From assembly GCA_950295325.1 (NCBI GenBank), contig OX485806.1, positions 58,649,169 to 58,713,168 of the forward strand: a DNA stretch of 64,000 nucleotides. Reading direction: 5' to 3'. The stretch is from Polytrichum commune. Taxonomy: Eukaryota; Streptophyta; Polytrichopsida; Polytrichales; Polytrichaceae. A model generated the notes under the pieces. The model was not told where the DNA came from, made no database searches, and saw only the letters and a list, made by a program, of their open reading frames with translations. Positions 3,131-58,733 of this stretch are shown here, piece by piece. Position numbers and translations under genes: made by a program. Numbering within the stretch: position 1 is the first letter of the stretch; each line of letters opens with the position of its first letter.

Positions 3131-3192
3131 GTGTTGTAACTTCTCTTTCTCAAGTAGCCAAGTATCCTAAGTAACCAAATTACCAAGTTACC
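3131..3192. repeat. AAGTAACC-type minisatellite, left part
   Basis: Short degenerate units of the type CAAGTAGCCAAGT and AAGTAACCAAATTACCAAGT. The same repeat resumes after D1 at 8777, so D1 was inserted into this array. The TTACC at 3188-3192 is the left target duplication of D1. Confidence 0.6.
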
Positions 3193-5039: not shown

Positions 5040-5125
5040 GCACTAAACGGTCAGACGAACTCAACGGGAATCGAACTCGGACCGTCTAAGTGTGATAACA
5101 TCCTTCCTCAACCAACCGAGGAAAC
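5040..5125 (-). repeat. tRNA-like segment, possible SINE head, inside D2
   Basis: On the minus strand a GGTTGGTTGAGGA stretch (5105-5117) resembles a pol III A box. About 30 bases on, GTTCGATTCCC (5066-5076) is an excellent B box. Spacing and order fit a tRNA or tRNA-derived SINE. The stems do not close into a normal cloverleaf by eye, so this is not called a working tRNA. D1 seems to lack it, which fits a later insertion into D2. Confidence 0.4.
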
Positions 5126-5215
5126 ATTACTTGGTGACCACAACCACAACAATCCTCAACTTATACCATAACGCGAGCGTAATTACTTGCTAACAACTAT
5201 GGTGGGTTACTTTTA

Positions 5216-5252
5216 TCTTATCTATCTAACTATCTATCTATCTATCTATGAG
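5216..5252. repeat. TATC microsatellite
   Basis: About eight TATC units, two of them imperfect, close to the tRNA-like segment. It may be the simple-sequence tail of that segment or independent slippage. Confidence 0.75.
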
Positions 5253-21930: not shown

Positions 21931-21935
21931 TTTAT

Positions 21936-22200
21936 TTGGACGGATGGGAGAATATTGTCCACCAACCTTTGATAAACATCATGCAAAATTTGCAACAAGT
22001 GACGTGTGTTTTGGTTTTATCTTCCCGACCAATAACCCAAATAATGCGACTACATTGCTATTTAGATCAAGAGATAAATTGTTGGAATGGATCCCAAAAA
22101 TGTCATCTAAGTGTGCTTTGACAATGCGGTAGACATGGAAAATGCGGCTAGTAGTTTGGCAGTGGATGGTTACACATATATTGCCAAGGACTAGGGAAAA
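21936..22200 (+). pseudogene. Possible hAT-type transposase relic (DUF659-like)
   Basis: One plus-strand frame reads LDGWENIVHQPLINIM, which resembles the DGW...PLIN segment at the start of the DUF659 part of plant hAT transposases. About 150 bases later another frame reads GMDPKNVI, then after one stop VCFDNAVDMENAAS, which resembles the PxNVVQVVTDNA segment that normally follows. Order and spacing fit, although two frames and a stop separate them. Zinc-finger and dimerisation domains are not visible, and no 8-bp duplication or terminal repeats were found. Confidence 0.45.
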
Positions 22201-25260: not shown

Positions 25261-25484
25261 TCCTTCTCCCTCCCACTTTTTTTTCTGAAAAGGGCAACCT
25301 GTTGAGAGAACGAGTGGTGAGGTGTTAATTCTTTCGAGCCGCCAGCAGTGGGATTGCTGGGACTCTGCACTTTTCAGTCACCGGCAGTGGGCTTGCCGGG
25401 ACTCTGTGGCAATTAGACGGAAGGGAAAGAATCCGGAAGAGAGGGAGTTTCCGTGGTTGAGCCGGAAACTGAGAGAAGAGGAAA

Positions 25485-28945: not shown

Positions 28946-31900
28946 TAAGGTAGGGTCTATGCTAGTGGATGAAAAAAAAATTTAAGAGAAATGTCCTTCA
29001 TGAAAAAAAAGGATGTAAGAAACAAAATGCAGTATAAGAAAAAATGGACAACAATTGGGCTCCAAGAAAGAAAAAACATGGGGTATGATCAAAAAAATCA
29101 GTTACTTGGGGTATAAGGGAAAAAATGCAGTTTAAATAAAATAAGGTATTTTTAATGATTCATCAAATAATTATAATTACTAATAGGTGTATTAAAATAC
29201 AAACATTTACATTTATTTTGAAAAAATACCATACCTTATAATATTTTCTACAAGGTAAATAACCCCCCAATAAATAAGTTGTGAGCGCATGTGTATGCAA
29301 AATATAAGAAGGAGTGAGGCCCCCAAGGAGATATTACAAAGGCTTCACAACCTTCCATGAGATTGAAGACCTTGATTTAATTAAGGGGCACCACATCCAT
29401 TTTGGTTTTCATGTAATTGGATTTTTTTTACCATCGTTTGGAATTTCAAAGCGTATATTCTCACTTTGTAACACATATTTTTGGTGCAAGAATTTTCAAA
29501 AGTAATAATTCCCTAAATAACATTGATAGAGCTTGTAATTTGTATCTAATCCACATTCTTTAATGGCATTTTTCATCTTGAATGATTAGGTGAAGCCACC
29601 TTCTTCAGGCATTCCACACCTATTTGTTCCGATTACCGTTTGTTCATGCAATTTCCTATTGTACTCCACTTGGCCTCTCCTACCATCTTCCCTTATATAA
29701 ATTGACGCATGCGCACCCAAAATGTCAATTTATTATCATTCAATTGATCAATTTTTTTCTATGTTGATCATTTTCATGTTGACGCGTTTTTGTTGTTTTG
29801 AGTCTTATGCAATCTTCCTTCTAGATTACAAATGCCTTTGGAGTCACTTAGGTTATATATTTTTATATTTTTATTTGGAGAGGTCATGAAATTTTTCATA
29901 TGAGCAATTTCAACTACACATTACATAAATGCAAATAGACATTGAAGACCATGGAAATTTCATGCAATAATATTGGGTTATTCCTAGCATTTTTTCAAAA
30001 AATTCAATGAAAAGGACATGTATGGTGTAGGTCTGGCTAAAAGGGTTGGTAGTCGTGACAGTGATAGACAAAAGGTTCACATAATTGTGAATGTATATTT
30101 CAAAAGAAAACAATATTTTTTCCTAAAAGATTTTTCAAACGCGTTGTCTATTTTTTATCCGCATTATGGATGTTGTGACCACACACAATTATCACTTTGA
30201 AGATTGCATGATGCCACAAGTATGTTGGATCATTTTCCTATGCAATAAGCTATGATGCAATTGGCATTATTGATCACCCATTTGGTCAAAGGGTGTATAT
30301 GGAAATCAACAAGATTATTGTACCATAGTTGTGGATTGCATTGCTTTAGATTCCATGAAATGTTTATATTTCATTATTCATGTCAACTTGAAATAAAGGT
30401 TATTGCATCACATGTCATGTGATGACATAGTTAAACAACTTTGTATTTGTGAGAATTCAGGATTTGTGAGCACGTTCATGTCCTTGCAATGTATGCATTC
30501 AAGTTGGAGAAATTATGCTATCATCTATGCAACCTAGTGTTGTAATGGATTGTAAATGAATAAATAACTATAAAAACACTTAAAATAATAAAATTAACCT
30601 CAAATATTCAAAATTCATAACTAGCCTATATTAAAGATAAGTATATAATTTATGTATAATAAATACATATGGCATGGGGAAATCTCATGATGATGACTTG
30701 CGACCCACTTGCAATATGTTATTTGATCATAGATGTTACATAATTTCTAATATTCAATGATATGTTTTTTAATTGGCAGGGTGCATTATTTTATGGAGAG
30801 TTTTCTTGGTCCAAAATGCATCAAACAACATTTTTTTGAGTGTAAATCAAAACATTAATACAAACAATAACCCCAATGTAATGATAGGAAATGTTATAAC
30901 CATGAACATACATGTATTATATGCTATAAACTTATGTGGTGCTTGATATTTGAAAATCCACAAGTATTAGCATTAAAGCTAAATTAGGGGATATCCCGTT
31001 TTATATCACATGCATATTCAAAGAAGAAAATTATGAAATTTTCTACAATCCCCACAAAATGATCAAATACAAAACTATAGGAATTGCAATACAAAAAAAA
31101 GATTAAAAACGTTCCTTTAGTGTGTATTTTAAGAAAATTTAAGATTTTCAATAAAATAAACAATAGTTAAGCAAGACGATATCATCCCACAATATTTGTA
31201 TGATAAATCCAAAAAAATTCCACTCAAGAAGAGGTATCTAGTTCAATTGCCTCCATTGCGTGGGGGATATAGTGGACAATAACAAATTTGGAACCCTCCC
31301 ATTGTATTTTTAAATATAAAACATTGTGGCATATTTTATATTAACAATAATTCCATTTCATTCAATCATGAACATGATAAATGACATTTAAAAACAAAAG
31401 AAATGAAATTTGTCCTAATGTGTGTTCGACACAACACTAAAAAAATACTAGAACTAGGTTTTTGTTAAACACAACACCGGTTTTTGTCAAAAACTAGTTT
31501 CAGCTTGCAAATCATTGGAGGAAATGGATTATCTAATTCCTTGACAACATCTTCTAGTAAGGTGTCATAATGCTCCATTTCCATTGTAATGATTATCTTG
31601 AGAACAATTGGTCTCCCAAATTTCAATGTATTTCTTTAATACGTCAATTTTCTAGGATTTACATCATGGCCATAGTCAACGAACACTTCTTCTATCCTTG
31701 TAAAGTCCAAGAAATGCATGGCCTTAAGGAAGTCTAACTTCAATAGCGGATAAATTGTTTTTTGTTATAAAGATAACCACAACCATCATCATTCCACATG
31801 TGAATCGTATTGTATCATGACAATCCCCATAATATAAATGCAAGATTTTCATATTTGAAAACATGCCAATCATCATTGTCCAAAAAATTATCAAAAAATC

Positions 31901-34639
31901 TATTTCTTCCTATCCCAAATTTTTTATAAGTTACATCTTGACTAAAGAATTGAAATCAACAACCTCTTGAATTGAATCTGGAATGAATGAAAGGTAATGG
32001 AAATCCATGATAGGGTTGTTGTATTTTTAGATACTTGTCTTAAAATGTAAATCCACCAACAAATTTGTTGGATGTTTTACATTGTTTAAACAAATAATTA
32101 AAAAATCCATCCATGTCTTTGTGAATACGACCAACAAGTAGAAATCTAACATGTATCTTTTGGAATATTTTAATGGTCATTATGGACCATAAAAATCATA
32201 CCATATTAACATATTTATCGTTCCTAGCCAAGTCATTTGAATGTAGATATAATGGTATGGGCTAGACAACATCCACACAATCTATGGCTATAGGAATTGA
32301 CAGGGATCATTTGTAGACCCAAATAATAAATACATCTTTGGGTTGGTCGAGGTTGAATCAAGAGATCTCCCCATGCATACAAAGAATAATTGTACCATAA
32401 TTGATGCATTATTACATCGTTCATTGTATTTGGTGTCGTGCGCTTCAAAATATGAATTGAGAGGTGAGAGGTGAGTTTTTGTATCATATTTTTTTGGTAG
32501 CTCAGGGAGATTGCATCAATAGGCGGAAGCACTTTTGCTCTCTCCTATTGAGCTCCCCAACATATAGTTTCTTTGAAAACTATTTCAATGGCCTCCTAAA
32601 TATGGAAGAATCACAAAATGGCTAGGAAATGACAACTTACCTACTTAAACACCCCAACTCTCCCAATGATACTTCTTATTCACACATTGTCCAATTTGCA
32701 CCACATACGCAATAAGGTTAAACTTAATGTTGGATATTTGTGACTCCAATCCATGTACAAAGTATCCAAGATAAAAACTAAATTTTCAACCATTGCAAAA
32801 CCATGAACACACTCATATGATGAATCAAGCATGATAGCTAATTGATGTGAACTTTGAGAGAAAACTTGGACCGTTAATCCCTTGGCAACAATCTCCAAAT
32901 TAGATTGCATATTCCCCACAAAATAGACTATATTGCAATGTTCCCATCAAGTTTAGGGTTTAGGATTTAAGAGTAATTATAATTAGGCTTAACGGGCAAT
33001 TCAATCAACTCCAAACCTCTAGATTGGGAGGTAAAACATTGTCCACCTTGTGTAATGCTAGGATATTGTCAGTCAATTCATGTTTTTCAAAGCTTTAATC
33101 ATCCATGCAAATGTCAACAACCTCAACCTCATCTTCTTCACTATCATTATCACTTGATGAAAATAATAATGTTGGGTACATAATAAATTTTGGTCGTAAG
33201 GGTTTGAATTTGAGTTCTACGTCCAAATCATTATTGGATATAGTAGATTTCTTAGATAATGCCTTGAGTAATTTTTTTGATGTTTGTTCCAAACTTGTCA
33301 TGCTCCAGTAATCCTCAAAATTGACACATGCCCTTGCATGATAGTTGACCACCCTCATGAATCTTGCAATAATGTAATTTATTTTGAAGCTATCTTAAAT
33401 TTATCTTAATCCTAAATTCTAAACTCTACCCCTACCCCTATGCCTAAAAGATTTCTTGCAAGTGGTCTCATCATGTACATGAGAGGAAAATTTATTCCCA
33501 TAATCATGTCATAAATTCAAGCCCAATTTGTTATTTTGGAATCCATTAGGTCTCGTGTCTTTGGGGCATCAATCTCCTACAAGACTTCTTCCCTCATAAA
33601 ATCCATTAGGATAAACATTTTGAATTTGGCCATGGTCACATCATTGTTTTTGTGAGGTCTCCCCATCCAACAATGAGGTGAACACACGCTTGCCTTAAAA
33701 ATGTGTGGATAATGCAATCAAGGTAGATGGTTGGCCATCTTGGTTGTGTAAAACCTCAAATTGCAACCTACAAAACTCAAAGACAAATTCCATAAGTCAG
33801 CCAAATGCCAATACTTCCAATTGTGGTTGTAAAATGTAGGTGGATCTTGATATATTTGTGAGTTTAGAATATGGTTCACAATTGCAACCAATACCAAAAT
33901 GCAAGGTGAAAAAAATTCTAATTTCACCGTATGTTAAAAACTCTCTAATCCATAAATACATGAACATCTTCACATCAAAGTGAAACATAGTAGAATCCTT
34001 AACATCTTGGTGTTGTTTGAAATTTTTGGACTTGTAATTAAGTATTTTTTTCAAAATGAAAGGTAGAGTTTGTGATGGTATTATTTGACAGGTCGCCTTT
34101 CTAAATGATTAATTAACCCAACATGTGCCAAATCATTTAACCAACACCGTAATTCTAAAGCATAATTCTTCACTATAGTTGATAAATGGTTGAAATCAAC
34201 ATTAATATCAAATGGCTTTGGATTTGAAATTAAGCTTCAATCAATTGGTGAGAATAACCACAAACCAAATTCAAAACCCCATTGTGCACATTGTGAGGCA
34301 CATATAATTTAAAACATTGTACATGGATACCAATACATTGAAAACATATATTTATATGATATTCACTTACATTTACTTTCTGAAGGCAAAAAATCTACAA
34401 AGAACCTTGTTTGTCACATATATGTCATTACCATCATCACTAAAATCCAAAACCCAACCACCCAATATATTTTATCCCCACACAATTTCAAGGAAAGATT
34501 TAATGTCATGCCAAAATTAATCAAAAAACCCTACGTCAAGCAAATATATTATTTCCTCCCCAAACTTGCTCATTTACCACCCTCCCACCCCAAGTACATA
34601 TGCAAAATAAACAAACCGTCTGCAACAACCAATGCAATC
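28946..34639. other. AT-rich stretch without recognisable genes
   Basis: Only short frames without recognisable motifs. A minus-strand 87-codon acidic frame at 33095-33358 (DNDSEEDEVEVVDI) is low-complexity and unplaced. No terminal repeats were found. Confidence 0.4.
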
Positions 34640-35075
34640 CAACCATCAATCACGGGGTTATCACTCCATTGTCAAGTTGAACACCACGTGCGACCAAAAA
34701 AATCTTCTTTTGGTAAGTTGCACCACCAAAATGGGTCAAAATTTTATCAATTTTTTTTCATGAGTAGATATACACAGTACCTATGACATACTTAAAAGTG
34801 GTAACTAAATATGATGATTTGTTTTTTTCATAAAACATACCGTTTCTAACTAGAATGACACATAATTGAACTAAAACAATTACTAAAAAAACAAAGATGA
34901 CGAAAATTTTCAAAAATATATAAAAAAAATACTATCAATGGTTATGTATATGTAGAAAAAATATCATAAATTTTAAAATTATATATGGCATGTAATATAG
35001 GGGTAGCAAACTTTGTCCGCACGTGATGTCAACTTGACAATGAAGTGACCTCCCTGTGCCATCAATAAACCAATA
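34640..35075. mobile_element. MITE-like foldback element
   Basis: CATTGTCAAGTTGA followed by CACGTGCG (34666-34692) returns in inverted orientation at 35018-35055 (CGCACGTG then TCAACTTGACAATG). Similarity extends outward through the ATCAATCACGGGGT and CACAGGGAGGT stretches, giving imperfect arms of about 50-60 bp around 320 bp of AT-rich sequence. No target duplication was established, so the class is unknown. Confidence 0.5.
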
Positions 35076-38000
35076 CAAGCCATCATCAATACAAAAACCA
35101 CCACCTAAAAAGATAAATGGGGAGCCCACACTACAACAAAAATACAACAAAAGGACTAGGATTTATGACTAATATAAGTAAGAAAATGGACTAATGACTA
35201 GCATTATTTCTAGTCTTCAACCTGGTCATGTCAGACTAATCGCTCCAAACAAAATGACTACGGTCATATTGGACAATTTCCGTTCCCCATGGGGTTTTGG
35301 GACCTCGTTTTGGTTGCCCCTCGACCCTTTATCATTTCTTATTATATTTAGTCATACCTATATGATTGTATTTAGTCATATGTAGTTCTACCCTTTGAGA
35401 ATAATTAGTCATATTTTATATTTATATGACAACATAATCTTCATTACATGTAGTCATATAACAAATACATGTTCAATAACGATTCCTATTAGTCATATTG
35501 TGACTAGAAATAATCATATAATACATAATTGTTTGTCAAATTGAGTAATCTTTGGCGCCTTACATTCTAAGGGGCTAATCATTATTTTTGGTTTAATATT
35601 AAGCATTTCAATTTTAATGACTAAATGTAGTCATTTCATATGATTATAAATAGTATCATTAAAATAATCAAAAGTTATATTCATAACAATTTTGCTATTC
35701 ATATGAACAAGATGACTAATCATAGTCATCATCTTCAAACATTTTACTCTATGATATGACTAAATCCAGTCATTATATTTAAATAATTTACAGCAAAATA
35801 TGACTGAGCATAGTCATCATATTCAAATAATGGACTACAAAAGATGAACTCGTATAGTCAATATATTGAAATATTTTACTACGATAGATGGCAAAATATA
35901 GTCCATGTTTACAAATATTTATTATAAGACATCCCATGTACATATATCAATCGCTAAGCATATTCAAACTACTCATTACAGATGATATACACTACTACCC
36001 ATCTTCTACCCAAAATATATTTCCTACATTCACCTACGACTCTATACATGCATAGTGTAGAAACATGGTAGACTACATTATAAAGTTTCTTACAACTTCT
36101 CTAATCTTGTTTATGAGAGAGTTATCTAATTCTACAATCTTAAAGAGGTTATATTCATCCTCATGGCTCCTTTGCACCTCTAGATACACACAACCTTTAT
36201 ATATTATAGCTTCATGCAATGTATCATCTTCTACATATCTTGTTTTTCAATGTGCAAACATTTTTTTTATCATTTTTCCATAACCCATCACTTGCAAAAC
36301 ATCCTATGTTGAGAATGTGGAGGACAGTGGAGTTTCTTCATTTGTTGCAACTACCTGCAGTTCCAATGATACATACATTAAAACCTCATGAGAAAACCAC
36401 GTAAACAACCATGCGATTGCCGACATCGTTCAGGGTCATCATCTTATCTGAGGCTATATATTTGGCATTTTTCTTATACACATGAACGATTCACGAGTAA
36501 ATACACAACCACTAATGATGACCAATTACATAACTAGCCGTTATAATGTTTTCTAGACTAATGACTACAATTAATCATAGCTATGACTTTGATGACTAGT
36601 CTTAGTCACATTTTCTATAGAAAGGATTAGTCTTAGTCATGTTTTCTAAAGTAATAATTAATCTTAGTTATATTTTTAAAACTAATGATTATTTTAAGTC
36701 ATATTCTTTATAGATTTTAGGTTTATGATTACGTACCTTTGTTGCGGGTCGTTGACTCAGCAACGGTGTGCGTTCTTTGTCTAATTCTATCATCTCGTTG
36801 TTGTCGTCGTCTCCACTCCCTCCGATACAAAGGTCATCCTTTCTTGGTCTAGTACTAAATCAAACATGGAATATCAAATAAAAATAGGTCCATAGCCTGG
36901 AATGGTTACTATGAGGAGTTCACCTCCACTTCCCTAGAATAAAGACGCTTTTGGAATCCTCAAACATATCAAACAACAACATTGACATTCATTCCAAAAC
37001 AACACTCAATACCTCTTCTACATGCTCATCTAGTAAATTGGCTACAGACCTCAGTATCACCTGTACAAAGGAAGACGGTGAGGGTGAAGGTATTTGAGCC
37101 ATTTTCCTTGCAGTGAAAAATTAGTGTTGAGACAATAATTGATTCAAAGGCTAGAAACACCTAGAAACAAGCTTCACACCTCAATGTACTAACAAAACTT
37201 AAACTAAGGAAATGATAGAAAGAACCAAGCATGGTAGACCAAAATAAATAACGCTGAAGAACAAATGAAGGTAAAAAAACAACACATTGGAGCAAAGAGA
37301 TAAGCGGGCACAGAAATATGAACTCAACCATGGAATTAAAAGGAAACCGCGCGGTAATAGGGTAGGTAACCCACAGGGATAGGGTAGGCAGAGGTTTTAA
37401 TGAAAAAAATCTCCAATGTGCAAGGGAGATTATGAATATTATTGTCAATAATTAAAATAACAACTTATAAAGACATTATAGGAGAATATAGGACTAATAA
37501 CTAGCATCCAACATGAAATTTTCTTCGCCAATTCAAATCATTTTGGTAACATCTTTATTGCTTATTACATTGATTATTATTGGTTGTCGTTAATTTGTTT
37601 TATTGAGCACTACAAGTAGTCATAAGTTGACGAGGCATAGACGTGATCAAATTCATTCATTCTAAGATTCCAAATAATCCAACAATCATCCTTGGACTTG
37701 TATATGTCTTTCACAAGACTAACATGTACAAGAAAAGATTGGATCCATTTCAAATGCATAGAAACATTTGGAAATGGATCCGAGATCACGAGAGGATTTT
37801 CTGCAATTACAATTGTGGGATATAGAGGAGAAGGAAGTAGATAGACAACAACTCACAAATTACGCATGCTCATATTTAAAATGCATGGGTGCAAATATGT
37901 TGTTAAAAAAAATCATCTGCAAACATCTTCAAGAGTACAAACAAAATCTTGAATTCAAGAAATCAATCATAATATGTTTGCTAGACATCGTTGATATTAA

Positions 38001-38767: not shown

Positions 38768-39740
38768 TGTCGCGCACCTCTCCATGAGGAGTGCCCGAAA
38801 CACCATGGGCACAAGGGGGACCCCGGAGTGACACCCGGGACTTGTGGTGCCGTTGGTGAGAGAGCCCAAGTGATCCTAGTGTGGGCGAGGGCCACGGGCG
38901 TTGGGAACGCCTCCCACCCACGAAGACTAGGAGGCATGAGGGTAAGGCCATCAGCTATGCATAGCTCATGGTGGGGTGATTCTAGAATGCTCAAGAACAC
39001 CTCAATTGGAGGTGTGAGCTAGGAGTTATGAGAATTTGAGTGGGGCGTTGTCCCTGGACAACGCCCTGGTACAACAGTGCCTAGGAGTGATTCCCGGGAC
39101 TGCCAAGGTTTGAACATGCATAACTTCGTTAATACTTTCTTGAATGGGGCAAGTGAGGAGTCCATCGTCATTTACGTGAAGCGTAGATGAAGATGGAGTG
39201 GTTGCTTGTTAGTATCATACATCATACAAGGAAGTTATGATGGTCTGAAGCTGCTAAGGGCTTCTAGGCCCAGTGGCTGAAGGAAAATGTCTACTTGGCT
39301 CCAACTCTTGGTAGAGAGACAAGAGGTTTCTTGACGGTGGGGTAGGGGCCCCACGTAGAGTCCTAGAGGCTTATATGGATGAGGTGGTGTGGCCTCACCC
39401 ACCCGAGGCCGAACGACACAGCCTCCATGGGCATTGGCCCAATGTGAGGCCATAGTTGCCTAGTACGCTTCGGGTTGTTGTAGTGTTGCTCCGGCAATGC
39501 GATGATCAACATAGGATTGGACTTCCATGGATGGAAGTTCACATCGAAGAAATGGGTTATCAATTAAGGGGTGAGTCCCGAAAGCAAAGTAGGAGGATTG
39601 GTTCCCTCCTATGAACTATAAGGTTTGGGGTAGGAAGAGCTAACCACTAGCATGGCGGAATGCGAAGGGTTAGCACTTGTAACCTTTGCTAGAAATGAAA
39701 ATTGGCAAGATTGTTAAGGGAGTTAGCAAGGGTTGCGACA
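38768..39740. mobile_element. Solo LTR B3 (973 bp)
   Basis: TGTCGCGCACC to GGTTGCGACA, colinear with B1 throughout and of identical length. Flanks ATATT (38763-38767) and CTATT (39741-39745) agree at four of five positions. The GGACTTCC/GGAAGT hairpin near 39520 and the CACCTC/GAGGTG stem near 39000 are recognisable. Confidence 0.82.
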
Positions 39741-40989
39741 CTATTGTAGTCGACTTCCATACGGATGATAAAATGTAGTCATTGTTTTGGACTCCAAGAC
39801 TACAAATTTTGTAACCATATGGATAATTAAATGTACGCCTTATTTTGAACTTTATGACTATAATATTTGAACATGATTACTAGAATCTCCGAATATGGAA
39901 AGCAAACATGAAGAATTCAAATTTGTACGAATGATAACATAGTGCCTAGGCAAGTACAACAACAACTCTACCGCAATTAATGATGGACTCGAGGATGACA
40001 AGGATGCCATTGTGATGAAAAAAAATAAAATTCGAGGAGGTAAAGCTTATGAAGGTCCTAGAAGAATAAATAAATCTATTATACGAGGGTATTCGAACAA
40101 CGCATAACATTGTAGTGCTTCTTTTCTTAAATTGCTTTACGATTTTTTGAGTATCAAATGCATGTGCAGATGATTCACATTCTTCAAATTTGATTGATTA
40201 ATACCTTATTTAGTAGATTCAATTGCATTTCCCCTTCATATGTAGCAATTTTATTTATAGATGACAAAAAAACAATGAGTGGAAGATTATTTTACAAAAA
40301 TATCCACGAAGCTGAAATGCATAGTTTGTAGTAAGGCAAATCCGAAGAACATCATGGCCTGAGGCTCATATCCATTTCCATTGACATGACACCTTATACC
40401 CCTATATTGAGGGGATGCAGGGTTCTAACCATGGAAGATGTCGAACCAAGCATTGGACGTTGTGGAAGAACATCCAGATTTGGAAGATGATGTTGTTTGA
40501 CATTAGGAAGGGAGGTTGCATGAAAAAATAATAGGTATAGGTGTATATCATTCTTTTTGTGAGTGTATAGACTATATATTTGCATATTACAAAGCCAAGA
40601 ACTAAACTATGATGTTGTGTAAAAGTAATAGAACTCAACAACATTGCAAATAAGTAAAAAATGATTGTATTGTCAAAATACAATCAGCAAAAATGCCATT
40701 GTCATAAAACATTTGTTGAAATGATCAAAGACCCAAGACTCACGACATGAATAAGTACGAAGGAAGTTCAAATGCAGTATAAAAACCATTCACTATAAGG
40801 ACATGAAAATCGTTGTTAGATAAGTATTAATCTTACTGATGTGGTCTTTTATGACTATCATGAAAATATTGTGATAACATGTTCCCAACACGTTCTCTAC
40901 ACGGTTCACATCTAGGTTATATCCAATATGACTAAAAACCTAGTCATATGATGACTATAGTCATTTCTAGTAATCACTTTGGTTCAACA

Positions 40990-47340: not shown

Positions 47341-47383
47341 AAGTGTTACAACACCAAACACCTACGGTACGAGCGAATAAATG

Positions 47384-50300
47384 CTTGTACTTTCCGTGCC
47401 TCAACACCAATGAGATGAGGGCCTAATTCCAATGGCCAATCATCAAACTCTATGATCTCCCTCTCCACCAAAGGGAAGCCACATGGTGCTAGCATGGACT
47501 CTAACTGCTACTGAGAGGAGGGGGCATTAACCATGCCCCCAACCTCCGTGCTAGTAATAGAGTCCATCCCCTCTTCATCACCACCAATATGTGATGATGA
47601 AGCCACCACTGGAGGTGAAGAAGCCAAAACAATATAAACTCGTTGAGCTCGAAGCTCCCCTATCACCTGCTGCTCGAATCAAAAGATTTGTTCGGCTTCT
47701 CCAACCACGACCTCAATTCCCTCCTCCATGGATGTGGACCGCTGTGTCCCCTGACCAGAATCCTCTGCCCCCAGAGACAATAACTGGTCACCATGATGCC
47801 GTTGCAATGCAAGGCATAAACTAATAGTCCACACCATGGTATGAAGATTTGTGGCTTGGCCCAACACGAAGCGTTGTTGGCCCTCAGAAAGGCCAGGAGT
47901 TGCGGTGATACCCATGCAAAATCCCATGACACGCTCCCGTTTGTCAGCCAAGGGTTCGGTGTGGGTTTTGGTGGTAGCATCCCACACCATACCCGGCCCC
48001 CGATCGCGGAAGGCGAATGACTGTGGAAATGTCATAAAGGTGGGAAAGGTCCGCCGTGGTGTCCCCACTTTGTTGACCAATGCCAACGGGGTTAAATCGT
48101 CTCAAACAACCGGCAAAGAGGTCCGGTTTGGATCCAAAATGTCATCCACCTTTTGATCAAAAGGCGGAGGTATTGCAAAAAATGTTGCAGCCAAAGTAGA
48201 TGACGGTGCAAGGTTGGTCCAAATCCACCGAGGCCGGTGGGCATAAGAACCAATGCTCGCGGCATCCACAAAAATGGGATCTTCAAGGTATTGACGAACA
48301 TAATGACCGCCCTCTAACACTTTGTCCCAAGAGTCTCCCAACAATGATACATTCTCGAAGATATACCCTGGAGGGGTAGGTAAGTGGGAAAACCACCACT
48401 GCATGAGACGGATGAGGTTCCAAAAGAGACTAGACCTGGGATCCTCTAGACCTCGGCCGGCTCCAACACGTGAATGGCCCTGGCATGGCCATCCCGCAAT
48501 TACCATATCCACTGCACCCAAGTGTCGTAAGTCGGCCTCACTGATGAGTATGACATCACGAGGGAGATGTAAAAACCACCCATGAATGGTAGTCGGGGGT
48601 AATTATTGGGGATACAACACCATTAACTGGTGAAGATGGTGACGAGTCACATGGGTGGACACTTGAGAGTTGTCCACATAGCCATACTGTCTGACTGTGA
48701 GGCCAGCCTCCAATACGGCCGCTAAGCCCGTGCCGATGCCCCCAAACAATTCCACCAAAGTAATCTCCGCTTCTGGAAGCCGCCATAAAATGGGATGTGC
48801 CAATGCCAATGGGGCATCCGGTATGACCGGTGTCCTAGGAGTGAGAAAAAGAACAATATCCTCACACCTCCGGAATAGCTCGGCGGAATCACTCCAGGGA
48901 GGAAGGGGATCCTTGGGATGGCGTACCTATGCACCCTGTCAGCCCTAAATCCCCACCCTTGAGCATCGTTATCCGGGTGAGAGCCTAAGGCTCACATGCA
49001 TTTAACTAATATCCTTAATCTTTTGACATTGAGTCATGGTTATCTCAATGACAAAACCTTATAAAACTCACATTTTTATTCCAAAACCACTAGGCCTTGA
49101 ATATTTATAAATATTATTCCCTTGTGGTGATTGCCACCCAATAACATTTCTTATAAAATACTAAACACCCACACTTAGGTATCTTAACTTGCTTTCCAGC
49201 TAATTCCAAACTTAAACACCTAACTTAATCAATAATTGATAATTGGGACCCTATAGTCAAACTCCTAATTCAACTAACTAGTTAATACCAACGCCTAAGG
49301 TTTTGACTGATGCTTAGTGTTATGTGTTTTTGAGAAATGTCTAGGCCTCAATATTAATATGTTCCCTTCTTCTGGTCAACTACAGCGTTCGGCAGCTCTC
49401 TCTGTTGCCGTAACTGTTGGACTACCGGACTCCAGGAGGTTGATACACCCAGCTTACCCTACTCCTCAACCCCCTATCAGCTGGCTAATGCAGTCTGCAT
49501 TCAGCAGCCACTCCAATCCGAAATTCCCTCGAGGCACCCTGAATTGCCAAGGCAACAATTTTCTTTCCGAGTAGGCAACCAACCACCTGCAGTGGCTTTC
49601 ACCTTCTACCTCACAGCCTTTCCCCACAACTATCATATCACTGTAGTTGCCATTAGAGCTGAAGTGCAAAGAGATCCCCTGTTGCTAAAAAAATCCAGCC
49701 AAGAGCTGCAGCCCATGTTGCTACTTGTCAGATTGCCACCATGATGTCAAAACCCAACATTGTATGTTCATTGGGCTTGCAAGACAGATTCGGCATTGAC
49801 CAAGTGAATGCAAGGCACCTCACCCAGCCAACAATGACTCCTGCCTCAATTCCAAACAAAACCATTCATCAAACCAGATGCTAAATTCCCCCTGCAGTTT
49901 GAAAGCTGATACACTTGCAACATGGTTTTCTGGTCGCTCTACAAAGCTTCCCTGGATCATCCTTGGTCGTGGCACTCGGCTCATTGATGTGTGATGGCCA
50001 ACACCTCCTGTTCATTGCAACGCTTACACACCCGAAGCTGAATTCGCAATTTCACCCTCTAGCTGCCCTTTTCCCAGGTGCAGCTACCGTGTACCAATTG
50101 CCATTCTCCCTGTGGTCAACAACCCTTTTTCGGCGACTACTATTTCCTGCTTGCCTCCAAGTATTCCTGCATCGCTCATTCTCTGTCTGCCGGCTGCTCC
50201 AGGAGCCTTCCCCGTCTTCTCCGCCCTTTTTTCTGCAGAGGCTTCACTTCCGAACCCGTCACCGAGCCTCTTCTTCCACCTGCCAACCTCTCTCTATCAA

Positions 50301-50921
50301 ACCCACCGAACTGCATTCGGCCCCCTCAATCTCAAAACCTTGGAGAGCGCTCCTGCTCCCTCCCTGTACCCTTTACCTTCATAATCCATAGTTTTTCTAC
50401 CGAGATCACACTGCCCTCCAATCTCTGGATTTCTCTAGAGCTTTGCTCTAGCTCCGGCCGCGTTCCACAACGTAGAGAGAAAGAGAAAGAGGAGACACAG
50501 CGGCCTCCAACCGTTCCACTAAGATCCAAGGCCTGGGAAATTCTAGGGGTACAGGCCCTTCCCCCCTAATGTAAACACAAGCCAATCCTAATTCGAACCC
50601 CTAAAACCAGCTTCCTGGTCCGAGATGAATCCAACTTTCCCCTAAGCCTAAGTTCAAATCCTAATTAACAGTGATAACTAAGTCCTAATCTAGTTCTTTC
50701 ACCGTCACGCCTTAAATGTTAATTTTCCCATCTAAAACTTTAATCCCAACAAGTTCACATTTTTTTATGTTTTAAATATTTTGATAAAATCAAAAAGTCT
50801 AAGTCTCAATAAATCCTAAGGTTTAACAACCTATGTGGGCTCAATCTTGGGCTCACACACCCTTAGGTGCCATATCCCGTTGATCGTCTGTACTCCCCAT
50901 GAATGCCAATGACTCCTCCAT
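47384..50921 (-). pseudogene. DNMT3-like DNA cytosine methyltransferase in a gypsy-type polyprotein (split by LTR A1)
   Basis: The minus-strand frame opens at the ATG at 50921, runs 64 bases to LTR A1 (48937-50857) and resumes at 48931. It holds the motifs of 5-cytosine methyltransferases in canonical order. These are VELFGGIGTGL (motif I, 48721-48755), GWPCQGHS with the catalytic cysteine (motif IV, 48480-48488), ENV (motif VI, 48348-48356), HRPRW (motif VIII, 48225-48239) and ERVMGF...GLSE...VLGQA (motifs IX-X, about 47800-47950). The FENV...YAHRPRWIWTNL segment resembles DNMT3 more than DNMT1 or CMT. The unrearranged order separates it from plant DRM. Downstream, the frame continues through EFDDWPLELGPHL to VQAFIRSYRRC, resembling a linker before reverse transcriptase. 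It ends at 47384, and sequence unlike the element follows. Five in-frame stops (48927, 48603, 48102, 47679, 47508) break it, with no frameshift. The enzyme should methylate DNA; this copy cannot be made whole. Confidence 0.88.
48937..50857 (-). mobile_element. Solo LTR A1, inserted in the DNMT frame
   Basis: On the minus strand it starts TGTGAGCCCAAGATTGAGCC at 50857 and ends GGGATTTAGGGCTGACA at 48937. CACCC flanks it at 48932-48936 and 50858-50862. At 1921 bp it has no retroelement genes and no primer binding site beside it. Overlapping frames of about 160 codons on the plus strand (49915-50569) are Ser/Pro/Leu-rich with no motif and are treated as chance. Confidence 0.88.
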
Positions 50922-51724
50922 TATGCGGAACCATAAGGCAATGTGTCCACAATAGCATCACATCCAAAAACCATGGATAATGGTACTATGGTTGCGGCCG
51001 CCGCGAAAGCCACAGGAATAAGTTCCCTGCGGCCATTCCCAGCCAACCAACCTGGCCGGATCCATGCCTCCTCAATCCAGTTGTCCAAACCAAAACCAAG
51101 AGGGTAAAGTGCTTGCTGACCAACTAAAATGTCATAGTTGGTCGCATCTGTCACCGCACACCTAAGAAGAAGAGGTGCGGGTGGATCTCCAGGCTTCACT
51201 TGGAAGCTAAGCTGTAATGGCTCCCGAGTATAACCCATGGCCCGTTTCACGTGACCAATGGATGTGACAATGGTGAATGGGCAGGGAGCCAAATTCTCGG
51301 CCGCCAACCCCAACTCATTGGCAAGCCTCTTGCCAATCATAACCGGTTGTGCCCCTGAATCCATCATCATACAACGGGGAGCAACCCGAGTAGCATTGCC
51401 CCCAGTTCGACTGACCACCAAAATGTCGGTACCATTCACCATACGCACGACGTCGGGTTGAATGCGGCGGCGCTCACGAGTAGGTCTAGCCGCGACATCA
51501 GACAGATAAGCTGCTCCCGCATATACTAGTAAGTCATAAGACGTGGTCAATTCCCTGTCATCTGAGGTATGTGCGTCAAAAGACGCAATGGTCTCTGCGG
51601 CAAGTCTCGCTCGCTGTTTGGCCACTTCCTGAGGATTTTCAGAAACAGGGATGTCTGTGGTGAGTTGAACCACGGTCAGAGAAGGTAAAGATGTTTTCCC
51701 TTCCAACAACTTGCCACCGACTAC
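50921..51724 (-). pseudogene. Retropepsin-like aspartic protease region of E1
   Basis: The minus-strand frame (262 codons from 51709, open further upstream) contains CMMMDSGAQPVMIGKRLA, with the D-S-G-A active site of retroviral-type proteases. About 75 residues later, NYDILVGQQALYPLGF corresponds to the conserved second half of such domains. Such proteases cut the element's polyprotein. The frame lies -1 relative to gag, whose stop is at 51721-51723, so expression by -1 frameshifting is plausible though no clear slippery site was seen. Its stop TAA (50923-50921) overlaps the ATG of the methyltransferase frame as TAATG, which suggests either reinitiation or a former frameshift. The frame itself is intact, but it lies between two solo LTRs in a truncated element. 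Confidence 0.82.
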
Positions 51725-52561
51725 CCTGTCGAAGGTGTGGCTCGTGACATAGCTTGCGCACGTGTCACGGCTGCGGAACTCACCACCTCGCCCGAGGCTC
51801 CGAACATATAATAATCCGGAGTAGAAGAACTAGCCTGAGCTCCGGAGGAAGATGGTGTGAGCCCAAGTTTGTGTTCACAAGTCTTTTAACTCTCAAATAT
51901 ATTTAAAATTTTGCATTGGTGTTGTGTGGATAGTTAAAAAAGGCTAGAGTTTAGATTTGGTCAAGTTTAGTTTGTAATGTGTTACGTAGGGGTTGAATAG
52001 AGTTAGCCGGGTTATTCAAAGTTACTAAGATAAAAAGGATTAAAGGAGGGGGGGAGGTTCGAGCCAAAGTTTTATTGTTTGTTTAGGATGTGGTGTGTGT
52101 GGGAAAAAGGGTTGAGAGGCCTCTTCCCAGTAGACCAGGTTCGGGATTCCCGGGGACCTGGAGGGGGGTCCCGAAGTCAATCGGCAGGGGTTCATTTTCG
52201 CTCTCTCTGATACACGGGAAAGAGCGGCAGTCCGGAGGGGACAAGCCCTGCCGGATTTGAAAATCCCTTCGGGTAGGGGAGAGGGAGTTGGATTCGAAGG
52301 GTGGGGTCGCCGACCGCTGATTCAACTCGCATGGGCAGCTGGAGAACGCTGCTGGACATTCACCTCCTGGTGGGAGCATTACAGATTTCGGGAGCTACAC
52401 TGCCAGGTTAACATAGAAGATTTACATTTACGCACAAGGTACATCTCTGAGCATTCGGCCATCAACCAAGGCAAATGTGGGTGCTCTTGAGAAATGCCAC
52501 CAGCCGGGAAGGCAGTAATCCCCGCACCTGGACAGAAGGCTGGGAAGCTCCGATTGTCGGT

Positions 52562-52608
52562 TGGGGTTTAGGGTTTACCCTAAAACCCTAAACCCTTAAA
52601 CCCTAATT
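52562..52608. repeat. Inverted telomere-type repeats inside A2
   Basis: GGGGTTTAGGGTTTACCC is followed by TAAAACCCTAAACCC and TTAAACCCTAA. TTTAGGG units thus meet CCCTAAA units head to head. These are plant-type telomere words, and AAACCCTA is also the plant telobox bound by regulatory proteins. I do not see an equivalent array in A1 or A4. Confidence 0.85.
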
Positions 52609-53271
52609 CATTCTCATGTGAGGGGGGAATTAACTCAGGGAACGATCGATCTGAAGGATTTAGCAGGGGGAAAGGAGTGAGGAATGCGGCACATTCATCT
52701 GTAAGCTCAGTAAGGTCTATACATTTGGATGTGCCAGTGCGTTGGCTCTTGACAGGTCGTTCGGAAGAGCCGGGGAAGGATGGCTAAGAGACGCAGCAGT
52801 AAAGTCAGGGGCAGGTGAAGGCAGGAGGAGCGAACGATGGCCTACACCGAACAGGGAAACTACAGGAGCTGTGGTCGAGTGCCCGGTTGTCCAAGGTGAG
52901 GGACTGTGGTTGTTTAGCAAAGCACTTGCAAGCGGGTACAGGCCAGAGACCCTGGGAAGAGGTCAATTAGATTGGTCACCAGAACAAGGGAAGGTACTCG
53001 GGCAAGTTAGGAGTTAATTAGGCTCTTAATGACGAAGGGCAGGTTAATTAGGGCCTCGTCAGTGGGTGGATGGGAACAGAGGGAGGAGTGTTAAGTAAGG
53101 CAGTAGTAGTGGGTGTTGATTAAACGCACGGAATTGGGTAGTGAGGGAATTGGTCCTGACCGATTGGGTGAATTGGCTTGGAATGAAACCTAAGGGTGGG
53201 ATAGTAATAGTGTTAGGTTTATTGGGGTAAGGGTGATAGGTGACGGCTCAAATGTTGACTGTATTATGCCA

Positions 53272-53325
53272 TTACTATAAGGAGGGGAAGTATTCCTAAA
53301 TACTGCTACCTCCTGCTTGAATAAA
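53272..53325 (+). promoter_or_regulatory. TATA-like box and poly-A signal of LTR A2
   Basis: TACTATAAGGAGGGG (about 53273-53287) is followed 33 bases later by GAATAAAG (AATAAA at 53320-53325), about 135 bases before the LTR end. The compact TATA, start, poly-A layout is typical of Ty3/gypsy LTRs and fixes A2 as plus-oriented. Confidence 0.6.
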
Positions 53326-55099
53326 GAGTGTGTGTTTACTTTCATTCAAAGTAAGAAATGGAAACTCAACTCCAAATACCTGTAAGTCAATCAACCACAT
53401 GTGAGCCTTGGACCTCCTCCTAGACTACGACGAAATGAAAGGTGGGGGTTTAGGGCTGATAGATGGTGAGTCCAAAATTTGGCCAGATGACACCAAACTT
53501 TTAAACCTCTCCTCCAAGGCTCCAATCTTCGCCTCCAATGCCCTTTCCCGTTCCGAAGAAGGACGTTTGTCTGAATGGAGAGCAAAGCAATTCTCCACTG
53601 AGTGATTGTTCCGCCCACAATGGGAATACCTCAACTGCTTGGATAAATGATTACCCGCTCCCCTTGTCAAATCCTTAGTGGGAACAAATGGTTTCCGCTT
53701 TGGATTACCTACGGGTTGGGCTTGCCTTTGCTTCAAAGGACAATTTTTCTTAGCGTGGCCCGCCTGCCCACAAGACCAACAATACATGGTCTTGTCCACC
53801 TCTGCCGCAGTCAATCTTGCAGTCACGACCAGAGCCTTCCGGGATTTGCTAGAATCCACTAGCAATGACACCAAATCAATGGCATCATGTTGACACAATG
53901 CACGATCACACTGCTCCACAATGGTGAATGCCTCTGCAAGTGTCGCCCGGCCACCAAACTCCATGATGATCCTGGGCAGCGCCAAGTCAAGGAGGCATTT
54001 GTCAATCTTTGACAAAAACACCTTCACTAACTGATTTTCCGCGAACACACCTCCAAATTCCCTGGCAAACCTCGCCAACCTCGTATACATGGTACGAGGT
54101 GTATTGTCATTCTCCCGTCTCAAATCATCTATCCGCTGCATGTGGTCCCGACGGAAACCTCCATACTTCTCCTGTAGATGCAGCTCAAATGCATGTAACG
54201 ACTCAAAAACTGGCGGAGCCCCTAAAGAAGCTAAAGCCGCCTAGGTAGTCTGAGCATAACGGGAGAGTAGAAGAATGGGATTCGACGTACTCGTCGTAGT
54301 GGGAGCAACCCTTATCCTTGGGTTCACCACGAGAAGCTCCCTCCACATCCACCACATATACTCCCTCCGACACCTCCGACTTAACCTTTAGAACGGCCAT
54401 CAAACTAGAAGTTGCACCTTCCCTCAATGCGGATACCAACTCAACTCAAGTCTCCTAGTCCGCTGCACCTCACTCAGCTCCATCCAATGGGCCTTTGTCC
54501 ACTGCTCATAGGTCTGGAGAGCTTTGTGTTCCAAATGTTGAGGCAAAAACTAGAACGTAACCCAATCGTTAAAATTGGTATTGCATTGACGTTTCATATC
54601 TTGAACCGAATTTTCCAATCTTGCAAGGATATGATCTCCGCTCGACTGGAAAATCGGTCCCGGATACTGCCTCATGTCTCTTCCTCCATCTCGTCAAATG
54701 ATCCCACCCAAAGGACGTGAGACCGAGTGGCAATCCCCCATGCAAAAATAGGTTGTAAAGCCTCGTCGGGTGCTACAAATTGGTTCAACGTCCGAGAGGT
54801 CCGAGGATCGACCTTCTCATAATGCCGGAGACGGAGAATGATAATGTTGGCTCCGAGTTATAACCATAAACCCGCAATGGATTCGATCACGGGAGCCAAC
54901 AACCTAAACTAATGTGGTGTCAAGGTAAAAGGTCAAAAGGTCAAAGACAACCTGCACCTGCAAACGCCACCAAACGTATAGTTTGCTGGATTGATAAAAT
55001 AAGGGAATACAAACACCGCCCACTTGTTGTACAAACAAGGGTCCCATCGGTCATTACTCCGACCTCACCCCCACAATACCCTATCACAATCTAGGACAA

Positions 55100-56042
55100 C
55101 ACAAAAAATGGGGCAGTGCTGAAACATTCCAGCACTACAACCCGCCACAGGGAAAGGTACCAAAACAAAATACAAAAAACTATGCAATAACATCATTGGA
55201 TCCTCTTCCCCAAAACAACACTTAAGCAAAAATTGAAAGCGACCTCAACCTACTAGCACCCGCCTGCAGTTGGTGGTCAAAATGAAGAACCCTTGGTGCT
55301 TACGAAAAGAAAATTGCATAAGCACATCTCTCATTTATCCACTACTACCTAAGAATCCCTCCTTATAATAATGTTTCACAGAATTTTTGTGTTTGATTCA
55401 CAAATTCTTGCATTTAGAATCACAAATCCGCTTCCAAAGCTCAATGTCACGAATTCAAGCTTGAATGTGAGCAAAATAACATGAAATTCCGTGGAAAATT
55501 CAAAGATTTTTCACCACCCTTCAACTTGATGTGACATTCACAAAAAAATCTTTTTCTTCTTGTTGCTTCAACAATCTATGATTTTCTCCGCTCCAAAACT
55601 CCGGAACTTCGTTGCTCTTTGCCCTCACGCGCCCCCTTGCGCGTTAAATAACAAGAATCAAGAAGAAAAAATTTAAAAAAAAAAAATGAAGCATTCTTGC
55701 CAAGTGAGAAGGAAGAGTCAAACACTCAGAAGAGCTTCAAATCTTTCTTCAAATGCATACAATGAGTCAAACTATCTCTCACTCCACCACGGGAGAATCC
55801 AAGAGTGTAATTAGGGGGAGAAGAAGTCAAGATTTATTGCAAAAACATTCAATCTTCACCTCACACAAGCTCTCTCCACACACTCACTCACAAGACTTGA
55901 CTTGACTTGGCAAGAATGCCAAGCCAAGGAGGAGGCTCCTCACTTAGGAGCCATTCTCTCCACATCTAGATTCATCCATCCAAATCTAAATGGATGAAAC
56001 CCAACGGATAAAGTGCGGCCGTCGATGCCGCATACCGTGACA
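55100..56042. other. Stretch upstream of E1 gag without recognisable genes
   Basis: This should correspond to the E1 leader or 5' LTR, but I could not find a terminus with a primer binding site. Short CACG/GCGC-rich and TCAAG-rich patches occur; frames are short. Confidence 0.35.
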
Positions 56043-56174
56043 GTTCCCTCTTAGAAACTATAAGGTCTGGGGTAGAAAGAGCTAACCAATAGCATGGCAG
56101 AATGTAAAGGGTTAGTGCTTGTGATCCTTGCTAGAAATGAAGATGGTTAAGGGGAATTAACAAGGGTTGTAACA
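56043..56174. mobile_element. 3'-terminal fragment of family B (B4)
   Basis: AGTTCCCTC...ACTATAAGGT and GAGCTAACCAATAGCATGGC to GTTGTAACA match the last 130 bases of B1 and B3. The rest of the LTR is absent, so this is a truncated relic. Confidence 0.75.
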
Positions 56175-56471
56175 CCAACTCGTTTATTAAAATCACAATA
56201 TAAGTTTGCAATTGGAAATAAAAATGTCCTATAATCCTAAATGTTTCCGAACCCAAAATCCATACATAACCATCCTCATTCCAATTCTTTTGCATCAATA
56301 TTGTTTCTAATATATCACCATCCATAGTGTACATCTCTTATCACGTACATGGGTTCTTATTTGGAGATTGAACCTCAAATCAAGTAAATCCTTTGAGACA
56401 CTCACATGACTATCATCCTCAAGAGGCAATGTAAAGGGCACAAAACGATCCACGAGCGCGAATAGTAGCCA

Positions 56472-57252: not shown

Positions 57253-58733
57253 CTAACTAGGAGCGAATTCGGAGGACGAATGTTGGAGGTCGGACGTTGG
57301 AAGGAGGACAACGAACCTCTGTGGGCTGCAACATTGAGATGCAAAGTACGAGTCAACAACCACGAGCCAATAGATCTGAACTAAGAACTTTGAGCCTTGG
57401 ACATTGGGTGGAGGTGGAGCGCTGATCATTCTTTGATCGCAATTTTGGCCCACTCTACAAAATTGCTTAGTATGTCCCGGTTGGCCACATTGGACACACC
57501 ACAATTCTAAAGCATGTCTACCCAACTCAACTAGTGGAGGAGGACTTGGTTGTTGACTCCTAATCATCAATGACATCTGATCAGTCAAACTCTACATCTA
57601 TTTCATCATGGCCTCTTGAAATCCCAACAGACTAGCACCTAACCGTCTCTCGACATCTTCGAGGTGAGGATCCAATCGAGGAGCTGGCAGTGCCAACTAT
57701 GGAGTTGGTTCTCTCACCACTAAAGGTTGTGGGCCTGAATCAATGAGAACATGTGGAGCTTGACTTTCGTGCCTTCCTGACTCTCCTCCCACCATCCTCG
57801 GACGAATGGGAATGAATTGAGGGATTGATTCGTCCTCTTTCCTCCATAACCTCTCATAGTCCTTGTCTATGTTCTCCATCTCCCTAGCTGCCACCTTAGC
57901 ATCCGCTAAGGTCTGAGGATTTCTCTCTAACACACCTCTAATAGTACCTACCTTAAAGAATCCTTGAATGAAGAATTATTTTAGTATGTCATCATTGAAC
58001 ATTGTGCCCACGAAGCGTGTACACACCAAATCAAACATACTGATATACGTCGAGATTTCCACTTCCCTTCCTTGTTTTAACAACACTAATGCTCTGACCC
58101 ATCTCTGGTCTAAATTCATTTAATAACTCCCTCTACATTTGATCCCATCCTCTAAAATGACCCTTTGCATGGTCTCTATACCACTCGTAAGCCTCGCCAT
58201 CTAGTATGGTAGGAAACCACACCAAACAGTATCCTGGATCTGTAATAAGAGAATTCGCTAATCTCTCAATATATCTCTCCATGTGCCTCGAGGGGTCCTC
58301 ATCCTTGGTTCCCCAAAACTTAGGGAGGTTGGATGACATATCCACCGCGGCCAAGTTCTGTGGAACTAAAATTGGGAGACCTCTCGGCCTCACCAATGGA
58401 TCGATGGGTGGATTGGGAGGAGGGACTCCTCTTTCTCCTTCCTGAGCCATGGTGACTGGTTCGTCTACTCCTATTTTAATATCAATTTCTATAGAAGTCT
58501 GCCTTCTACCTACTTCAGTCTCTAACTTTGTCTCGCCAATCAAGTTAGAGGAAATCGCTTCCTTCTCAAGTTGAGGTTCTACTTCTAAATTTCCTATCAA
58601 AGGACTAACAACTCTCTAGTCTAACTCCCACCTCTTCTACAACTTCAGTAGTCTTTGCTAACTTCTTCCTACGTGTAATTTTCCCTAGTCCTAACTCCAA
58701 CTTTGGCTTGTGAGCTCGAGTCTTACCTTGCAT
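57253..58733 (-). pseudogene. Gag of the gypsy-like element E2
   Basis: A likely start codon is at 58733 (MQGKTRAHKPK, basic); a stop/frameshift near 58615 leads into the longest frame (58600-58133). That frame carries a Ty3/gypsy gag core, from LPKFWGTKDEDPSRHMERYI to ILDGEAYEWYRDH. After a break the frame resumes at 57933 with NPQTLADAKVAAREMENI and YERLWRKEDE. The last piece holds a CCHC zinc knuckle, CVQCGQPGHTKQFC (57460-57505), which binds the element's RNA. Two or more frameshifts make the copy non-coding. Order and strand fit the primer binding site and 5' LTR to its right. Protease and later genes are missing. Confidence 0.82.

Follow-up and report, generated by a model that had tools for sequence, protein, structure and literature searches.

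A fossil Ty3/gypsy-type retrotransposon carrying a DNMT3-like methyltransferase in Polytrichum commune, and its relatives

We analyzed a stretch of 64,000 nucleotides from Polytrichum commune (GenBank assembly GCA_950295325.1, contig OX485806.1, positions 58,649,169 to 58,713,168 of the forward strand), hereafter called the window. Its minus strand, to which the main coordinates refer, holds what we identify from sequence as a fossil copy of a Ty3/gypsy-superfamily long terminal repeat (LTR) retrotransposon, whose first open reading frame (ORF1) combines Gag, a protease (PR) and a DNMT3-type cytosine-5 methyltransferase (Table 1). Relatives used for comparison include P0082, an intact protein of 1,354 amino acids (aa) used as colinear reference, and L081 (CADCWO010000201.1), a contig in which the plan of such an element is intact.

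Layout of the window copy and kinship of its methyltransferase

The remains of gag align to P0082 in a single frame (tblastn, 45% identity, E 2e-106), whose start, as well as the stops that interrupt it upstream of 54240, was read directly off the sequence. The window protease and methyltransferase correspond to P0082 residues 565–844 and 870–1353, respectively. Gag and protease reach only sub-cut-off Pfam scores (PF13975, E 0.0015, for the protease), yet they are colinear with intact relatives at 45–61% identity, which bears out the initial annotation of a methyltransferase sharing strand and module with a zinc-knuckle gag and a DSGA protease. Directly upstream, the leader alignment to L081 (window 55312–54926) scored 140, against a maximum of 49 in 60 mononucleotide shuffles, and this homology to a leader or LTR end is the only LTR trace of the element. 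A 142-column repeat (56043–56175 and 39601–39741), the sole strong distant direct repeat of the window, was weighed as a candidate LTR pair and discarded, being short (142 bp) and without a tie to the element.

Table 1 Features of the methyltransferase-bearing element in the window and, in the last two rows, of its relative L081 (L081 coordinates)
Feature	Position	Strand	Evidence or remark
LTR end or untranslated leader directly upstream of gag	54926..55312	-	Locally aligned with L081 8264-8580
Gag remains (N terminus, capsid-like region, zinc knuckle)	53470..54867	-	tblastn to P0082 residues 1-453
CCHC zinc knuckle CWSCGQAGHAKKNC	53737..53784	-	PF00098, E 0.0034, 17.8 bits, under gathering cut-off of 20.8
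Foreign insert in gag/protease gap	51840..53400		Ends approximate, by eye
Aspartic protease region with MDSGAQP	50921..51829	-	61% identity over 264 aa to P0084, E 3e-92
Insert in protease/DNMT gap	48937..50857		1,921 bp; first bases TG, last CA; 5-bp GGGTG on both sides
DNMT3-like cytosine methyltransferase with C-terminal tail	47514..48926	-	PF00145; 54% identity over 490 alignment columns to P0082
Motif I ITLVELFGGIGTG	48726..48764	-	Read from sequence and translation
Motif IV, PCQ with catalytic Cys	48480..48488	-	Read from sequence; column aligned in family
Motif VI, ENV	48348..48356	-	Read from sequence
Motif VIII, HRPRW	48225..48239	-	Read from sequence
End of ORF1, UAG then CAGUUA	47502..47510	-	Matches UAG-CARYYA (consensus from PMC3542737)
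Linker preceding reverse transcriptase, frame shared with ORF1, broken off at ~47353	47353..47507	-	75% DNA identity of window 47547-47356 to L081 3452-3643, across the stop
L081 ORF1, gag-protease-DNMT	3-3491		Ends TAG CAA TCA
L081 ORF2, RVT_1, RT_RNaseH, Integrase_H2C2, rve, PHD	3492-6635		Pfam; frame shared with ORF1

Two inserts interrupt the copy. The matched gag and protease pieces lie ~1.7 kb apart, against 111 residues between them in P0082, and a short telomere-like run of the TTTAGGG type (tandem repeat 52577–52606) lies near 52590 in the foreign insert of this gap, whose ends possibly share GGCTCACA. The gap between protease and methyltransferase spans only 25 residues in P0082, and the insert that fills it in the window is probably, from its sequence, the solo LTR of another LTR element. 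This 1,921-bp insert with its 5-bp duplication, the three in-frame stops in the DNMT frame (48605, 48104 and 47681, ahead of the ORF1 end at 47510), and the truncation before the reverse transcriptase (RT) show that the copy is dead. No RT or integrase (IN) of the element was found in the window, either with Pfam in three minus-strand frames of 45.5–55.5 kb or with a family RT/integrase profile (25 aligned segments of relatives) in all six frames; the latter gave one weak integrase-like match near 1146 (E 3e-4), not assigned to the DNMT element.

The motif series I, IV, VI, VIII and IX–X that had been noticed in canonical order can be read in one frame of the window, with a motif IX/X-like stretch ERVMGF...LGQA completing a linear arrangement. 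PF00145 matched the middle DNMT piece at E 1.3e-10 and the read-through frame at 9.8e-9, and 81 database relatives were found at E ≤ 1e-3, the best with 81% identity over 82% of the query, so that the likeness far exceeds chance. A profile built from 35 relatives gave 54 matches in a PDB sequence search, the best 29 of which were DNMT3A, DNMT3B or DNMT3C (1.4e-26 to 5.6e-21), followed by six DRM-type chains (1.8e-15 to 5.8e-14), including two labelled merely “DNA methyltransferase” that we take to be DRM, and then by HhaI (1.8e-8). Consistent with this ranking, an AlphaFold model of relative P0005 (pLDDT 82) yielded 162 Foldseek rows at E ≤ 0.001, and all 50 rows listed were chains of DNMT3A/3B/3C entries, some of them DNMT3L complexes, with TM (target) up to 0.83. 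Against viral proteins, the fold search retrieved ordinary viral cytosine methyltransferases (best E 2.5e-15, versus 4.9e-17 for DNMT3A in PDB).

By profile and by predicted fold, the enzyme is thus DNMT3-like, as had been proposed: DNMT3 is the nearest kin of its catalytic domain, ahead of DRM, DNMT2 and bacterial C5 methyltransferases. A DNMT3-type catalytic domain is also present in cellular plant DNMT3 and DRM, DRM types being the next best PDB group, while DRM has a rearranged motif order in contrast to the linear one of the window. Pfam scans of the window frames and L081 detected none of the companion domains PWWP or ADD (animals) or DUF3444, which land-plant DNMT3 carries (PMC6453930). 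Since algal and protist DNMT3s have been reported without companions (PMC12344493), this absence does not define the catalytic family, nor does it separate the element’s domain from theirs.

An intact relative and the stop codon before the reverse transcriptase

L081 measures 9,285 bp, has identical 127-bp ends and closes to 9,158 bp, as may be expected of an LTR element whose repeats collapsed in assembly. This eukaryotic retrotransposon contig sits in a public Synechococcales cyanobacterium genome bin, and relative P0005 is likewise labelled as a Candidatus Obscuribacterales protein. L081 unites the whole plan in one element: its ORF1 mirrors that of the window, and its ORF2 shows the gypsy order, with RT and RNase H (RH) before the integrase, followed by a C-terminal PHD finger (E 4.3e-10). 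The best PDB kin of this finger are those of CHD4, PHF12, a fission-yeast protein, KMT2D, UHRF1 and KDM5. The PHD fingers of CHD4, PHF12, KMT2D, UHRF1 and KDM5 are readers of the histone H3 tail.

According to the initial annotation, the methyltransferase frame runs on into a linker typical of the region before RT. The frame is indeed the same; it continues, however, only across the UAG at 47510. The context of this stop is TAG CAG TTA in the window and TAG CAA TCA at the homologous place in L081, so both copies for which DNA is available (2/2) fit UAG-CARYYA, the tobamovirus-type (type I) readthrough signal (PMC3542737). In both, an open frame lies beyond the UAG in the same frame as before it, and the two hexamers differ solely at consensus-free positions. 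As compared to its use in tobamoviruses, the signal would here separate Gag-PR-DNMT from the RT of an LTR element. DNA homology crosses the stop, with 75% identity between window 47560–47353 (minus strand) and L081 3439–3646, the highest among long matches. In L081, the first Met of ORF2 is residue 117, shortly ahead of the Pfam RT match at 128, which makes readthrough the simplest route to ORF2 there. The UAG that follows the methyltransferase is a probable leaky stop in both copies.

Among the 29 gag/PR-DNMT proteins that lack RT and reach 600 aa, 16 share, by eye, a similar C terminus 83–143 aa past the DNMT domain; the remaining 13 end elsewhere or are cut. Identical synonymous codons are more frequent near the stop (22/31) than in DNMT (78/188; p 0.002), in what is a post hoc comparison of two sequences, and they are equally high in the tail before the stop (14/20); we do not take this synonymous signal as proof. 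With eight occurrences in the window, UAG-CARYYA exceeds the expected 3.3, so that by itself it carries no meaning outside an ORF end. By eye, a GGGGGCAT...ATGCCC hairpin sits just ahead of the ORF1 stop; the conserved stretch around this stop is a possible cis-acting signal.

Several observations count against readthrough as the general solution. The leaky-stop context is known from two DNA copies only, and some members run from DNMT to RT without a stop (P0101 and P0160 from metagenomes, and the gene models P0165 of Klebsormidium and P0116 and P0190 of Closterium), so that a supply of DNMT at the level of Gag is not family-wide. In addition, the window has an ATG five codons past the stop, and several ORF2 records (P0120, P0121, P0123) start with Met just before the linker, making reinitiation possible outside L081. 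We nevertheless regard it as unlikely that ORF2 is reached by termination–reinitiation, frameshifting or a spliced RNA instead: L081 ORF2 offers no Met before residue 117, and in both copies the frame is identical across the UAG, with variation between the hexamers at free consensus positions alone.

Family members, domain orders and surroundings in the window

To place the element, we collected 237 proteins from three protein searches, the third of which scored only the 7,990 candidates with the most shared words and contributed 120 of 1,658 matches as listed. Domain orders were assigned with home-made profiles built partly from the same proteins, and their E-values are not independent. The DNMT domain was present in 145 of the 237 proteins, the remainder being pol-only or lesser pieces. 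It lies upstream of RT within one ORF in 26 proteins and in a gag/PR-DNMT or PR-DNMT ORF without RT in 44, in agreement with the previously noticed position between gag/protease and RT. This position needs one qualification: in 12 proteins DNMT follows RNase H (ten RT-RH-DNMT-IN-PHD, plus P0119 and P0113). Four others combine DNMT and integrase without RT, 58 show DNMT alone, and one is gag-DNMT. PF00145 is also listed by the database itself for 12 of the 26 proteins with DNMT before RT and for one of the 12 with DNMT after RNase H, and three records (P0235, P0207, P0224) retain only 36–110 DNMT residues. From these sequences, we distinguish two domain plans in the family, i.e., PR-DNMT-RT and RT-RNase H-DNMT-integrase-PHD.

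Named hosts of DNMT-bearing proteins were Klebsormidium nitens (e.g., P0165, with the order PR-DNMT-RT-RH-IN), several Closterium, Marchantia polymorpha, Haematococcus lacustris (P0119, a weak match, E 6.5e-7) and Tetraselmis (P0207 and P0224, only 98–110 DNMT residues; we assume the record label Tetstr to denote this genus). For the pol part, the closest named hosts among the matches listed were liverworts. In the liverworts Calypogeia fissa and Riccia sorocarpa, the pol part alone was seen, and P0214, a pol relative lacking DNMT, bears an arthropod name. Mosses and vascular plants were absent from the hosts named among the matches listed, most of which bear no host name. Kin of the element are transcribed, as the pol relative P0122 is a transcriptome ORF. 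Three scans of viral contigs gave no relative of the element, and two further scans returned distant cytosine methyltransferases (80 loci kept of 584, and 53 loci). P0108 also carries a G-patch, and both P0108 and P0182 extend some hundreds of residues past the PHD finger (P0182 by eye), which suggests further domain capture.

Quick tree searches with SH-aLRT support only were run on sets of rows thinned for similarity; of the 145 proteins with DNMT, 88 had sufficient length for inclusion. The DNMT tree comprised 83 rows, i.e., 77 from the family, human DNMT3A, and five viral enzymes (eight picked, five after thinning), and it split the 77 family rows from human DNMT3A and the viral enzymes (support 99), with the human row on a long, partial branch flagged by the program. 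Eleven RH-DNMT-IN rows fell on one side of a branch and 37 PR-DNMT-RT rows on the other (98), and in an RT-RH-IN tree of 84 rows, nine RH-DNMT-IN rows formed one clade (99). Because these rows group in both trees, the second domain order most likely arose once, whether the domain was relocated within the element or captured again from kin. In the DNMT tree, the window and L081 were placed among gag-PR-DNMT rows, adjoining those from Marchantia (93). Deeper branching is weakly supported, and the DNMT tree separates the family rows from human DNMT3A and the viral enzymes only.

Elsewhere in the window, eight other ORFs did not reach the Pfam cut-off, no tRNA was found, and Rfam gave no match at gathering score. 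Two ORFs of 694 and 264 aa, at 25473–27557 (plus strand) and 14372–15166 (minus strand), share long similar stretches by eye, match no Pfam family, and are G+C rich within an A+T-rich setting; they are perhaps gag-like ORFs of another element. A 160-aa ORF at 58133–58615 (minus strand) resembles plant gypsy gag by impression, without a Pfam match. Across 16000–24000 and 29000–37000, observed/expected ratios were 0.34–0.39 for CpG and 1.36–1.39 for TpG/CpA, a CpG depletion that suggests a heavily methylated, decayed plant genome.

Possible roles and relation to known systems

Domain order, DNMT3 kinship, the conserved catalytic Cys, the in-frame UAG-CARYYA and protein constraint are observed in these sequences; what the enzyme does must be deduced from them. 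We put forward an explanation that, as a whole, we hold to be about evenly balanced between right and wrong, in which an element encoding Gag-PR-DNMT, a leaky UAG, and Pol with a PHD finger methylates its own new complementary DNA (cDNA). Specifically, occasional readthrough would yield little Gag-PR-DNMT-Pol and much Gag-PR-DNMT, such that DNMT would be made at the level of Gag rather than Pol and packed into the particle, where the protease would release it. DNMT would then methylate the new cDNA before or at integration, and the copy would enter the host methylated like resident DNA, which might shield it from host recognition and limit damage by early silencing. The PHD finger, nearest to H3-tail readers, suggests a role in target choice and may help select the landing chromatin.

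Both constraint and known activities bear on this explanation. Ratios of non-synonymous to synonymous differences (pN/pS) between the window and L081 were 0.42 for gag, 0.39 for protease and 0.38 for DNMT, indicating that DNMT is constrained about as firmly as gag and protease, and dinoflagellate DNMT3s from DIRS elements perform de novo CG methylation in yeast (PMC5890265). On the other side, with pS at 0.74–0.81, near saturation, these ratios show constraint and not its strength, and the window lineage also passed some time as a pseudogene. Moreover, a Klebsormidium DNMT showed no activity in yeast, a result that the authors judged inconclusive (PMC5890265).

The domain might instead have lost DNA methylation and act in packaging or reverse transcription as a module that binds nucleic acids or methylates RNA. 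In the thinned family alignment, Glu replaces Pro ahead of the motif IV catalytic Cys in 22 of 77 rows, among them eight of the 11 RH-DNMT-IN rows as well as Closterium rows. To our knowledge, Pro-Cys is otherwise near universal in such enzymes. This unusual active site, as well as the lack of activity of the Klebsormidium enzyme in yeast (PMC5890265), would fit a module of that kind. Against it, 75 of 77 rows retain the catalytic Cys (the exceptions being one Ser and one gap), as do 21 of the 22 Glu-bearing rows, 76 have the motif VI Glu, and 74 and 70 have the first and second motif VIII Arg, respectively, while both the window, whose RxR motif reads HRPR, and L081 have Pro-Cys. We consider a loss of methylation improbable.

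We give a still lower rating, that of a quite unlikely alternative, to action in trans, whereby DNMT would exit the particle and methylate competing elements or host genes, silencing rivals or shaping the host methylome. Host-wide effects were discussed for Symbiodinium by de Mendoza 2018 (PMC5890265), and a leaky stop would make the DNMT part more abundant than Pol. However, an enzyme embedded in a Gag polyprotein that has its own protease favours action within the particle, and Klebsormidium, a host of such elements, has a land-plant-like methylome (PMC5890265). Finally, a chance association of a host DNMT3 gene or pseudogene with an unrelated element, which the fragmentary copy and the lack of an RT match in the window might evoke, has a negligible probability, since it is already contradicted by the colinearity of the window with P0082 and P0084 and the layout of L081, as well as by the proteins that join gag/PR or RT to DNMT in one ORF (44 and 26 of 237).

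Returning to methylation of the element’s own cDNA, a bolder version, which we view as rather doubtful, would describe one ancient green-plant gypsy lineage that captured a DNMT3 a single time and moved it once from the protease to the integrase side. In its liverwort-related branch, a leaky stop would load the enzyme into every particle at Gag level and an H3-reading PHD finger would ride on the integrase, so that the element would write methylation on its own cDNA, pick matching chromatin, and arrive marked as silent host DNA.

Retrotransposon-borne methyltransferases were already known, as the initial annotation stated. The coding region of KnitGypsy-Dnmt3, a Ty3/gypsy element of K. nitens, includes a DNMT3-type domain that is not rearranged and that the 2018 report describes as independently acquired in this lineage (PMC5890265). 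The K. nitens proteins P0074 and P0165 from our searches fall within the same DNMT set as the window. The DNMT of KnitGypsy-Dnmt3 is reported in the Pol ORF (PMC5890265), whereas that of the window and L081 closes the Gag-protease ORF before UAG-CARYYA, and the family described here has members in liverworts and chlorophytes and shows a second domain order. SymbioDIRS-Dnmt3 of Symbiodinium also bears a DNMT3-type domain and occurs in more than one arrangement, in a DIRS element with a tyrosine recombinase (PMC5890265), as opposed to the gypsy-type rve integrase of L081. A 2025 survey, citing the 2018 paper, assigns retrotransposon DNMT3s to LTR Copia and DIRS elements in streptophytes and dinoflagellates (PMC12344493); its Copia label is at odds with the Gypsy of the 2018 text and with the gypsy domain order found here.

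Passages of PMC6453930, PMC11244446, PMC10538959 and PMC9985172 make no mention of land-plant gypsy elements with a DNMT; those of PMC9985172 describe Ty3/Gypsy bursts in liverwort genomes, and the word methyltransferase is absent from them. A partial literature search found, among the papers listed, no report on liverwort or chlorophyte members, the two domain orders, the leaky stop or the PHD finger. The concept has been known since 2018, and what the sequences add to it is breadth, the two domain plans, a probable leaky stop, and the Glu-for-Pro active-site variant.

Methylation is a main weapon of plants against retrotransposons, and an element that brings its own DNMT3 inverts this usual picture. 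While the 2018 report placed the acquisition in the Klebsormidium lineage (PMC5890265), the relatives collected here point to one broad family across chlorophytes, charophytes and liverworts, which includes the genetically tractable Marchantia. If leaky, the stop after DNMT would indicate the amount of enzyme made, and methylation of particle-borne cDNA would be directly testable.

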